DNA of 64,000 nucleotides. Origin: an uncultured Oscillospiraceae bacterium (lineage in GTDB: Bacteria; Bacillota; Clostridia; Oscillospirales; Oscillospiraceae). A program made the position numbers and the translations under genes. Shown here piece by piece: positions 15,057 through 38,354 of the stretch (positions are counted from its first letter, which is position 1; each line of letters opens with the position of its first letter). The DNA is taken from positions 1-64,000 of the forward strand of contig CALWON010000002.1 of NCBI GenBank assembly GCA_944383165.1, written 5' to 3'. The notes under the pieces were generated by a model, which worked only from the letters and a program-made list of their open reading frames with translations, was not told the origin of the DNA and did not search any database.

Positions 15057-15335
15057 ATGTATTATGTCTATATTTTGCTCTGTTCTGACCATACACTCTA
15101 CACAGGCTCTACCAACCATCTGCAAAGACGGCTGGCAGTCCATAACGCTGGGAAGGGTGCCAAATATACACGCAGTCGGCTTCCCGTCCAACTGGTCTAC
15201 TGGGAAACATGTTGTGACCGCTCCCATGCACTGCGGCGGGAATGGGCAATCAAACAGTTGAGCCGCTCAGAAAAATGCGCCTTAATTGCTTCATTTTCCC
15301 AATCAGAGCCAGAAACGCTGGACACAAATACTTAA
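15057..15335 (+). CDS. GIY-YIG nuclease family protein (UPF0213/YhbQ-like)
   Basis: A 92-residue single-domain GIY-YIG protein. The motif appears as YVYILLCSDHTLYTGST, with the family RxEWAIKQLSRSEK block after it. Members of this short group are small nucleases linked to DNA repair; the exact role is unsettled. It stands alone with AAAGGGGG upstream and a strong terminator overlapping its stop. Confidence 0.9.
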   Translation: MYYVYILLCSDHTLYTGSTNHLQRRLAVHNAGKGAKYTRSRLPVQLVYWETCCDRSHALRREWAIKQLSRSEKCALIASFSQSEPETLDTNT

Positions 15336-15384
15336 AAATCCCAGACAGAAGTGAGAAGTTTCTCACTTCTGTCTGGGATTTTTT
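15334..15384. terminator. bidirectional terminator
   Basis: A very strong hairpin: AAAAATCCCAGACAGAAG continues to a 22-bp stem ending in CTTCTGTCTGGGATTTTTT, with T runs on both strands. It closes the GIY-YIG gene and the leftward operon ending at 15395. Confidence 0.93.
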
Positions 15385-34829: not shown

Positions 34830-34982
34830 TGTCGCTCCTCCTATGTATACAAAATCAAAATCTGCCAATTGCAGGTCTCACCTGCCGCAGATGCAAAATT
34901 CTTACCATAACCCGTTTTATTGTATCTCGATTTCCCAGTTAGGTCAAGAGAAAAAGCTCGAATTTCGCGAACTTTAAAACTT

Positions 34983-35864: not shown

Positions 35865-37121
35865 CTAGGTCCTCTGTACCAACGCAATGGATGCACCTAG
35901 TCCTCGCAAAGCCTGTTCCAGCCGCTCATAGCCCCTTCGGATATGATGCAGTCCTGTCACCTGACTTTCTCCCTGTGCAGAAAGTGCTGCCACCACAAGG
36001 GCAGCTGCACCCCTCAGGTCGGTTCCATTAACCTGTGCACCGTGTAGTTCCCTTCCTGTCACCACTGCTACTCGACCGGAAACTTGGATGTTGGCACCCA
36101 TTCTGGACAGCTCATCCACATGGCGATACCGACTGTCAAATAAATTTTCTTCAAACATAGTGGTCCCTGTGCCTCCTGACAGTGCAGCCATAAAAATGGC
36201 CTGTGCATCTGTGGGGAACCCAGGATAAGGAGCTGTCCTGACCATAGAAATCCCCTGCAATTTTCCTCCGCTTTGTAGCCGCACCTGTTTTTGCCCCATT
36301 TGCAGATGGCATCCAGCCCGCTCCAGCCCATCCAACACTGCACCCATATACTGGGTAGAAACCCCCTGCACGGTCACATCCCCTCCACATGCAGCAACTG
36401 CACACAGGTAAGTGGCTGCCACAATGCGATCCCCTTGGATGTGGTGCTCGATCCCATGCAATGGATATCCCCCTTCGATTTGTATCACAGAACTACCAGC
36501 TCCCCACACCTTTGCCCCCATTTTCTGAAGGACTGTCTGTAATTCTATGATTTCAGGCTCTTTGGCTGCCCCCACAATGGTAGTGGTTCCAACCGCACCG
36601 CAGGCTGCCAGCATGAGATTCTGTGTTGCTCCCACACTGGGTATGGAAAGAAAAATATCCTTCCCAACTAGGTTGCCCCCTTTGGCAATCAACATCCCCT
36701 GTTGCTCCTTAATCTCCGCCCCCAATGCCCGTAGGGAGGACAAGTGTAAGTCAATGGGACGTGGTCCCAGCTCACAGCCTCCTGGATAGGACAGCTGCCC
36801 TTCCCCCATCCTGGAAAGTAAGGCTCCCAAAAAAACAATAGAGGACCGCATTTCCTGCATGAGATGGTGGGGGATCTGTGCTGATGTAGGCTGGGAAGCA
36901 TCTACTACTAAAGTACTGCCTTCCCGCCTCACCTGACAGCCCAACTCACGCAAAATATCCATGGTAATGGACACATCGGTTAATTCAGGGCAATTATACA
37001 GGGTACTCTGCCCCGATGCCAACAAGGTAGCTGCCAAAATGGGTAAAACACTGTTTTTTGCTCCATGTACCGTTAACATTCCAGATAAGGGATTTTTTCC
37101 CTTTATTTGATAAAAATCCAT
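35865..37121 (-). CDS. murA: UDP-N-acetylglucosamine 1-carboxyvinyltransferase
   Basis: A 418-residue enzyme for the first committed step of peptidoglycan precursor synthesis (enolpyruvyl transfer to UDP-GlcNAc). It begins with a HGAKNSVLPILAA motif (substrate Lys/Asn), and has the flexible-loop Cys in PGGCELGPRPIDLH (about 115), the site that fosfomycin alkylates. Later GAxxIxxTGRE-like motifs are present. Its start codon and part of its ribosome binding site lie in a perfect 13-bp inverted repeat, suggesting translational control. Confidence 0.96.
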   Translation of the reverse strand: MDFYQIKGKNPLSGMLTVHGAKNSVLPILAATLLASGQSTLYNCPELTDVSITMDILRELGCQVRREGSTLVVDASQPTSAQIPHHLMQEMRSSIVFLGALLSRMGEGQLSYPGGCELGPRPIDLHLSSLRALGAEIKEQQGMLIAKGGNLVGKDIFLSIPSVGATQNLMLAACGAVGTTTIVGAAKEPEIIELQTVLQKMGAKVWGAGSSVIQIEGGYPLHGIEHHIQGDRIVAATYLCAVAACGGDVTVQGVSTQYMGAVLDGLERAGCHLQMGQKQVRLQSGGKLQGISMVRTAPYPGFPTDAQAIFMAALSGGTGTTMFEENLFDSRYRHVDELSRMGANIQVSGRVAVVTGRELHGAQVNGTDLRGAAALVVAALSAQGESQVTGLHHIRRGYERLEQALRGLGASIALVQRT

Positions 37122-37162
37122 AGGATAGCCTCCTGTTCTAACTTCAGGTAGGCTATCCTATG
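37119..37162 (-). promoter_or_regulatory. 13-bp hairpin covering the murA start codon
   Basis: CATAGGATAGCCT (transcript upstream arm, from 37162 to 37150) is a perfect complement of AGGCTATCCTATG (37131-37119), which contains the murA ATG. The ribosome site AGGAGG (37134-37129) enters the stem. The loop is 18 nt. Folding would block initiation. No T tract follows, so it is not a terminator. Confidence 0.65.
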
Positions 37163-37195
37163 CAATCATCTGCCTTTTGGTCTACAAAATGACCA

Positions 37196-38314
37196 TTATC
37201 TCATCATTTTACATAGGGTCTGATAAATCTGTTCCCCGGCATTTGGGACTGCCATCTCATGGAGGCGGACCACCATTTTTTCCCGCTCCACCCGGTTCCG
37301 TAGCAAATCAGATGCCACTTCATAGAGCTTTTCTCCTGTACAATCCTGCTCTAACAGCAATACTGCCGCACCTTGGTTTGCCAATACCCTAGCATTTTTT
37401 TCCTGATGGTTAGCGGTTACATTGGGGGAAGGAACCAAAATAGATGGCTTTGCTATGGCAGTCAGCTCTGATATGGTGGAAGCCCCTGCCCGACAAAGTA
37501 CCAAATCCGCTGCTGCCATCACCAGTGGCATATTGTAGATATACTCCAGTACCTCCACACCATTATCCCCCAATTGCAGCCCACGCCGCAATAAATTCTC
37601 CTTCATCCAGGAAAAATCCCGTCCAGCACCATGGATATGGTAATAAGGGGAACCCTCATAGCACTCTTTGGCAATGAAATCTGCCATATGACCATTCATC
37701 ACCTTGGCACCCAGAGAACCCCAATAGGACAGAACCAGAGGGCGTTGATCCTGTAATCCCAGCACCTTCCGGGCTTCCTCTCTGGTGTAACGGAAAAAAT
37801 CCCCGCGCACTGGTGTCCCTGTGACGACCACTTTCTCTGGGTGGTCGTAGTGATCCCTGCTCTCCTCAAACCCAACCATCACACAGTCTACTACCTTGGA
37901 CAATGCCTTGGTGGTTAGCCCTGGCACTGCATTGGACTCATGGACCGCAGTAGGAATTTTTCTGCGTGCGGCCTCCCGCACCACTGGAAAGGAGGCATAG
38001 CCACCTGTCCCCACTACCAAATCTGGACGGAACTCATCCAAAATATGGTTTGCCTGACGCTTTGATTTTTGCATATTCAACACAGTGCCAATGTTGTGGA
38101 GAATATCAGCTGGTGCAAAGGAGCGATGAAAATTGGTAATGGTCACGGTTTCGATGGAGTACCCCTCTTTGGGAACCAGTTTGGTCTCCATCCCCCCGTC
38201 GGCTCCCACAAAGAGAATCCGGCAGCCGGGATGCCTCTCCTGAAAAATACGGGCCAGTGCCACTGCCGGATTCACATGCCCTGCTGTACCCCCGCAGGTA
38301 AACAATATGTTCAT
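37196..38314 (-). CDS. murG: MurG glycosyltransferase (lipid II formation)
   Basis: A 372-residue peripheral membrane enzyme adding GlcNAc to lipid I. N-terminal TCGGTAGHVNPAVALA binds lipid substrate; the C-terminal Rossmann domain has SYWGSLGAKVMN (usually GGSLGA) and LVLCRAGASTISEL, PSPNVTANHQEKNA. ATG 38314 is chosen over an upstream GTG because GAGGT lies 6 nt before it. It sits between ftsW and murA. Confidence 0.96.
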   Translation of the reverse strand: MNILFTCGGTAGHVNPAVALARIFQERHPGCRILFVGADGGMETKLVPKEGYSIETVTITNFHRSFAPADILHNIGTVLNMQKSKRQANHILDEFRPDLVVGTGGYASFPVVREAARRKIPTAVHESNAVPGLTTKALSKVVDCVMVGFEESRDHYDHPEKVVVTGTPVRGDFFRYTREEARKVLGLQDQRPLVLSYWGSLGAKVMNGHMADFIAKECYEGSPYYHIHGAGRDFSWMKENLLRRGLQLGDNGVEVLEYIYNMPLVMAAADLVLCRAGASTISELTAIAKPSILVPSPNVTANHQEKNARVLANQGAAVLLLEQDCTGEKLYEVASDLLRNRVEREKMVVRLHEMAVPNAGEQIYQTLCKMMR

Positions 38315-38354
38315 AATCACACCTCAAGTCCTTTTTACGCCTCATCTTTGGTTC

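Follow-up and report, generated by a model that had tools for sequence, protein, structure and literature searches.

In the 64-kb stretch of DNA analyzed here (the window), the start codon of murA, a core wall gene of the division and cell wall (dcw) cluster, lies inside a long perfect hairpin, which raises the question of what such a structure does at this position. The gene (35865-37121, minus strand) encodes a UDP-N-acetylglucosamine 1-carboxyvinyltransferase of 418 residues (TIGR01072, above the cut-off) and would be the regulated gene. The co-directional murG (37196-38320, minus strand) lies upstream and is the putative source of a read-through transcript. As both genes are on the minus strand, the minus-strand RNA is the relevant one.

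A hairpin covering the start of murA

The inverted repeat consists of two 13-nt arms (37119-37131 and 37150-37162), which are 100% complementary and 18 nt apart; the 13-bp perfect hairpin described in the original prediction was thus confirmed. Read on the minus strand, the 5' arm CATAGGATAGCCT (37162-37150), defined by the inverted-repeat match and by covariation, is followed by an 18-nt loop (37132-37149) and the 3' arm AGGCTATCCTATG (37131-37119), which contains part of the Shine-Dalgarno sequence and ends exactly with the murA ATG (37121-37119). The Shine-Dalgarno sequence AGGAGG (37129-37134, minus strand) lies 7 nt before the ATG. It had been thought to enter the stem, which is correct for its last three bases, whereas its first bases lie outside the 13-bp stem, under an apical helix formed within the loop by CCUG (37148-37145) and CAGG (37135-37132). 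Folding agreed with the proposed sequestration: the hairpin of the longer RNA is predicted to hide both the ribosome site and the start codon, as in promoter-in-hairpin leaders of the T4 gene e type.

The minus strand folded at -47.6 kcal/mol, in comparison with -27.2 kcal/mol for dinucleotide shuffles (z = -5.5, 0 of 200 shuffles), and the hairpin region was more stable than dinucleotide shuffles on both strands. On the other hand, several other perfect hairpins of at least 13 bp with 100% complementarity were present in the window, so that length alone is weak evidence and the claim that a 13-bp arm is very unlikely by chance could not be kept on that ground. The significance of the hairpin stems from its position at the start codon and from its conservation. 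No second copy of the murA-leader hairpin was found in the genome, and this single occurrence ruled out a genomic repeat or mobile element. An Rfam search of the leader matched no curated family, riboswitches included, with one sub-threshold match to SpF25 (24.6, cut-off 48). No intrinsic terminator was listed at the hairpin by a procedure limited to loops of 8 nt. The sequence GGATTTTT, which comes after the stem in the window species, is absent in most relatives, and the earlier view that the hairpin is not a terminator agrees with the lack of a T-tract in relatives.

A sporulation-type promoter in the 5' arm

Promoters of sigma-K have a spacer of 16-17 nt and a -10 element of the form CATAnnnTA, and transcription from promoters of this kind is expected to start approximately 6-8 nt past the -10. 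Upstream of murA we found a bipartite motif of this type, (A)ACC-N16-GCATAGGATA, with AC at -35, the appropriate spacer and CATAnnnTA at -10. The -35 element AGACC (37179-37183, minus strand) places its AC exactly 17 nt before CATA, and the -10 element GCATAGGATA (37154-37163, minus strand) overlaps the 5' arm of the hairpin. From the spacing, the sporulation transcript is predicted to start in the loop (37143-37147, minus strand), at least 6 nt downstream of the -10. By sequence, a second, regulated promoter is therefore located within or next to the 5' arm and, given the predicted start, would yield an RNA that lacks this arm. Because of the inverted repeat, CATAGGATA is also read on the plus strand, but it has no AC 17 nt upstream, and a symmetric plus-strand promoter was rejected.

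We collected 64 genomes of the genus, all with a MurA match, and read the dcw-type murA leader at 58 loci, the window included. Both arms and the bipartite promoter were present in all 58 leaders, each of which had GCATAG[GA]AT or a one-base variant, the start codon 38-42 nt later and a complementary strand around the ribosome site. The C of the -35 element (-18) was invariant (58 of 58) and AC-N17-CATA was found in 55 of 58 leaders, while the spacer sequence varied; the last -10 base was G in several relatives. In the window's own genome, ACC-N16-CATAnnnTA had 14 matches, and those preceding genes included murA, dpaA (dipicolinate synthase A), an aspartate kinase, a Cys/Gly-rich peptide and a PRK06851-type ATPase. 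In C. difficile, dpaA is described as being under sigma-K control (PMC3789822).

The original prediction had missed that the 5' arm doubles as a promoter -10. This double role explains the conservation of the arm and gives a more specific mechanism. It is very likely, in our view, that the leader is a read-through-silencing device with a promoter in the hairpin, in which the -10 of a mother-cell (sigma-K-type) promoter forms the 5' arm, and the murA Shine-Dalgarno sequence and start codon form the 3' arm.

The promoter of the same device might instead be recognized by sigma-E, which acts earlier in the mother cell, or by both sigma-E and sigma-K. According to the text of PMC3789822, the two factors have similar -10 boxes in C. 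difficile and differ at -35, with ATA for sigma-E and AC for sigma-K. No ATA-type -35 was found at murA, which has AC(C) at the fixed 17-nt spacing. The leader of spoIVA, a sigma-E target, has in contrast a -35 of the sigma-E type (TCATATT) in two genus members, before CATAGAATG or AATAGAATG, and the murA motif also precedes dpaA. Thus, although some genus genomes had no clear sigK match at the threshold used, recognition by sigma-E, alone or in addition to sigma-K, appears unlikely.

Conservation, covariation and rewiring of the pairing

The proposed silencing device with a sigma-K-type promoter was further assessed by comparison of leaders. In a sister species, the 74-nt leader, including the 3' arm, was 100% identical (74 of 74 bases), in comparison with 88-93.5% DNA identity in murA, murG and their neighbours. 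In an alignment of 41 distinct genus leaders, a 12-pair helix was 91.9% paired, versus 22-37% when the strands were slid. Two pairs had changed on both sides (GC to AU and AU to GC), and cells with both sides changed numbered 7, against 1.5 expected in shuffles (0 of 500 shuffles reached 7); the hairpin is thus conserved in relatives with compensatory changes. The same single pair was broken in most genus members, with the remaining helix kept. The loop and apical sequence were not conserved.

With a covariance model of the genus element, matches were obtained in further genera of the family, most of them at murA. Direct reading of murA leaders showed that the model missed many because the promoter was kept while the pairing partners had shifted. 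The leaders read outside the genus numbered about 100 and came from 67 genera, 81 leaders being from the family and 20 from other families. A loose promoter score was uninformative, as 35% of shuffled leaders passed it, and for this reason the strict motif CATAnnAT[AG] was adopted; it was present in 80 of 81 family leaders and 19 of 22 other-family leaders versus 17 of 1620 shuffled ones. In both sets the promoter was retained and the pairing partners had moved into the spacer or the -10. Rewired pairs were CCTCCGCA/TGCGGAGG, CGTCCCCGCAAG/CTTGCGGAGGACG, CCTCCTTTGC/GCAAAGGAGG and ATCCCTCCCT/AGGGAGGGAT in the family, and CCGTGTTAGC/GCTAACACGG and CACAGCATAGTA/TACTATGCTGTG in other families. On the 5' side, the pairing involved bases of the promoter spacer or -10 region, which precede the predicted start; on the 3' side, it was usually the ribosome site that paired.

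In a swap test, each ribosome site was paired with the upstream segment from other genomes. The 81 family leaders paired better with their own segment (-20.5) than with swapped ones (-15.7, sd 0.32, 0 of 2000), and the same was observed for the 20 other-family leaders (-16.4 versus -12.7, 0 of 5000). With one leader per genus from 68 genera, the window's included, own pairing was -19.0 to -19.7 versus -14.3 to -14.8 (sd 0.35), a difference of 13-15 sd in five draws (0 of 5000). Shared motifs do not account for the better own pairing, since the swapped partners have these promoter and Shine-Dalgarno motifs as well.

These results also bear on other functions of a hairpin that is conserved and sequesters a start codon, namely a regulatory RNA that responds to a ligand, a protein or temperature, or that couples murA to murG translation. 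A sensor of the need for wall precursors had originally been suggested; however, the loop and apical parts vary freely, the arms are rewired between genera and no Rfam family was matched. The suggested coupling to ribosomes leaving murG fared no better, since the murG stop, 33 nt from the stem here, is at a widely varying distance in relatives (by a crude open-frame estimate). With the fixed-spacing promoter also left unexplained, we consider a regulatory RNA highly unlikely. A slightly smaller chance still may be given to a DNA operator, in which the palindrome would bind a dimeric sporulation regulator (e.g., SpoIIID or GerE) and the complementarity to the start codon would be incidental: the inverted repeat over the -10 is perfect in the window species, but most genus members break its symmetry at the one shared pair while keeping the rest of the helix, and other genera pair different sequences, usually including the ribosome site, so that no fixed operator is seen.

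Other genes with the same promoter or hairpin

The genus Amidase_3/SH3 gene served as a negative control. Of 30 leaders of this gene, most have AC-N17-CATAGGATG, located 29-35 nt upstream of the ATG, and the leaders showed no excess pairing (-10.7 versus -10.5 swapped, 1364 of 5000), which indicates that a hairpin does not arise automatically from CATA facing ATG. Hence, even though CAT/ATG complementarity is inherent to any such promoter near a start codon, there is hardly any likelihood that the murA pairing is a by-product without selected function, given these amidase genes, the rarity of pairing in background genes and the large excess of murA pairing over swapped partners (13-15 sd).

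At a second gene, an Amidase_3 (N-acetylmuramoyl-L-alanine amidase) locus of another genus of the family (L105), a perfect inverted repeat, GGCATAGGATGGACC/GGTCCATCCTATGCC, surrounds the start codon. Its hairpin has 18 predicted pairs (-37.5 kcal/mol) together with the same promoter type, i.e., the same device. L105 is preceded, at a distance of 50 nt, by the end of a co-directional gene, whereas in four genus amidases a long opposite-strand frame starts 85-171 nt upstream and reads away. This contrast, from a small sample, fits a putative role in insulation against read-through. In a 400-kb genome sample, only 6 sigma-K-like sites were found near starts, and the amidase and murA had the top ranks; the sample does not permit a claim of general enrichment. 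Three further matches of the covariance model, L101, L107 and L112, precede proteins of 108, 123 and 234 residues, respectively, that had no Pfam or NCBIfam match; each has a sigma-K-like promoter and a start-codon hairpin.

Predicted behavior of the two transcripts

For the energy calculation, the start of the promoter transcript was set at 15 nt past the C of CATA. In the window species, opening of the ribosome site and the start codon was predicted to cost 23.2 kcal/mol in the read-through RNA and 5.4 kcal/mol in the promoter transcript. The median predicted costs (read-through versus promoter) were 16.8 versus 7.8 kcal/mol in the genus, 15.2 versus 7.5 in the family and 13.3 versus 8.1 in other families, and the predicted read-through cost was the higher one in 157 of 159 leaders. 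When the 5' region was shuffled, the read-through cost fell to about 10. In many relatives the apical helix still covered part of the Shine-Dalgarno sequence in the short transcript; the AUG was more open in the short form in all 58 genus leaders.

At the sequence level, the silencing device is supported by the hairpin, the promoter motif at fixed spacing, conservation, covariation, order-wide retention and rewired co-adaptation, from which we infer sigma-K use, the start site, read-through from murG, silencing and a sporulation role of the dcw MurA. RNA entering from murG would carry both arms and fold, and murA would be poorly translated from it. RNA from the sporulation promoter would begin in the loop without the 5' arm, which would leave the ribosome site open and allow murA to be translated well. 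In this way, the sporulating mother cell would be the main site of expression of the dcw-cluster murA, despite the location of this gene in the division and cell wall cluster, and a second, divergent murA paralog at another genomic location would provide for growth.

A broader proposal, which we favor with less assurance, is that the dcw murA is dedicated to sporulation and silenced by the hairpin on vegetative operon RNA across an order of spore-forming gut bacteria, that such leaders are a general insulator for mother-cell genes downstream of vegetative genes, and that new arms evolve again and again, since ATG is pre-paired with the CATA of the -10.

Comparison with known systems

The proposed mechanism matches, by analogy, two known cases. 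In the leaders of the T4 genes e, soc, 49 and I-TevI, a long early read-through RNA is described as folding and hiding the ribosome site; at gene e, the 5' strand of this inhibitory fold is encoded where the late promoters are located, and the late RNA without this strand is translated (PMC3014915). The logic is common to both systems, but T4 involves phage late promoters and phage genes, whereas murA involves a bacterial sporulation promoter, a core wall gene and order-wide conservation with rewired arms. In B. subtilis, the text of PMC5942855 reports that a large hairpin at sigG (spoIIIG) was proposed to block translation of spoIIG read-through RNA and is unable to form in RNA from the sigG promoter. 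There, a forespore promoter drives a sigma-factor gene, in contrast to the mother-cell promoter of murA, whose -10 is itself the arm.

The C. difficile sigma-K regulon is described as including the wall genes murE and glmM/glmS and two amidases (PMC3789822), a case, like that proposed for murA here, of genes for wall precursors that have acquired a sigma-K promoter; the main text of that paper does not name murA, and its passages on these genes mention no read-through-silencing hairpin. MurAB of B. subtilis, a second MurA that supports sporulation (engulfment), is described with a sigma-A transcript (PMC9600426) and is not known to have the control proposed here; it is likened to the dcw enzyme by the putative sporulation role of the latter. 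Within the open-access text, the new aspects appear to be the host gene (murA in the dcw cluster), the sigma class, the order-wide conservation and the rewiring.

If our reading is true, in many gut Clostridia the first committed peptidoglycan enzyme of the division cluster would be developmental rather than housekeeping, and operon membership would mislead annotation and drug-target reasoning in these bacteria. The leader would be a bacterial, order-wide conserved counterpart of the T4 gene e switch, in which selection retained the logic (an arm upstream of the start site and the ribosome site downstream) and replaced the sequences.

Sporulation genes, the murA paralog and neighbouring signals

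With spoIVA in 61 of 64 genomes and sigma-E/K homologues in all, the genus is spore-forming as judged by gene content. The sigK model had no match over the curated cut-off in genus genomes, and B. subtilis also failed in the same search; at E<=1e-40, the sigma-E-like match was the only one in some genus genomes. The sigK-like matches were partial in eleven genomes (G004, G007, G008, G009, G020, G021, G030, G033, G044, G047 and G050), and some of them contained in-frame stops; this would be expected if an inserted (skin-like) element or contig ends split the gene. Across the order, dcw-type murA was found in about 89 of 141 spore-formers versus 6 of 16 genomes without spoIVA; as this association is weak, the phylogenetic profile was not used as proof.

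A second MurA, approximately 44% identical, was present in nearly all these genomes. Its leader, read in four genomes, has a TTG start and no promoter-hairpin element. Some genomes keep only the paralog, and three of the genus (G012, G014 and G015) have spoIVA and the divergent paralog without a dcw-type murA, which implies that sporulation does not require the dcw murA.

Directly upstream of ftsZ, which lies downstream of murA, a sigma-70-like promoter (TTGACC-N17-TACAAT; 34919-34947, minus strand) was observed, so that ftsZ need not rely on murA transcription. A short terminator-like stem (34975-34953) lies 5' of this site. Elsewhere in the window, a 24-bp perfect inverted repeat with a 2-nt loop and A/T ends (15334-15383) is probably a bidirectional terminator.
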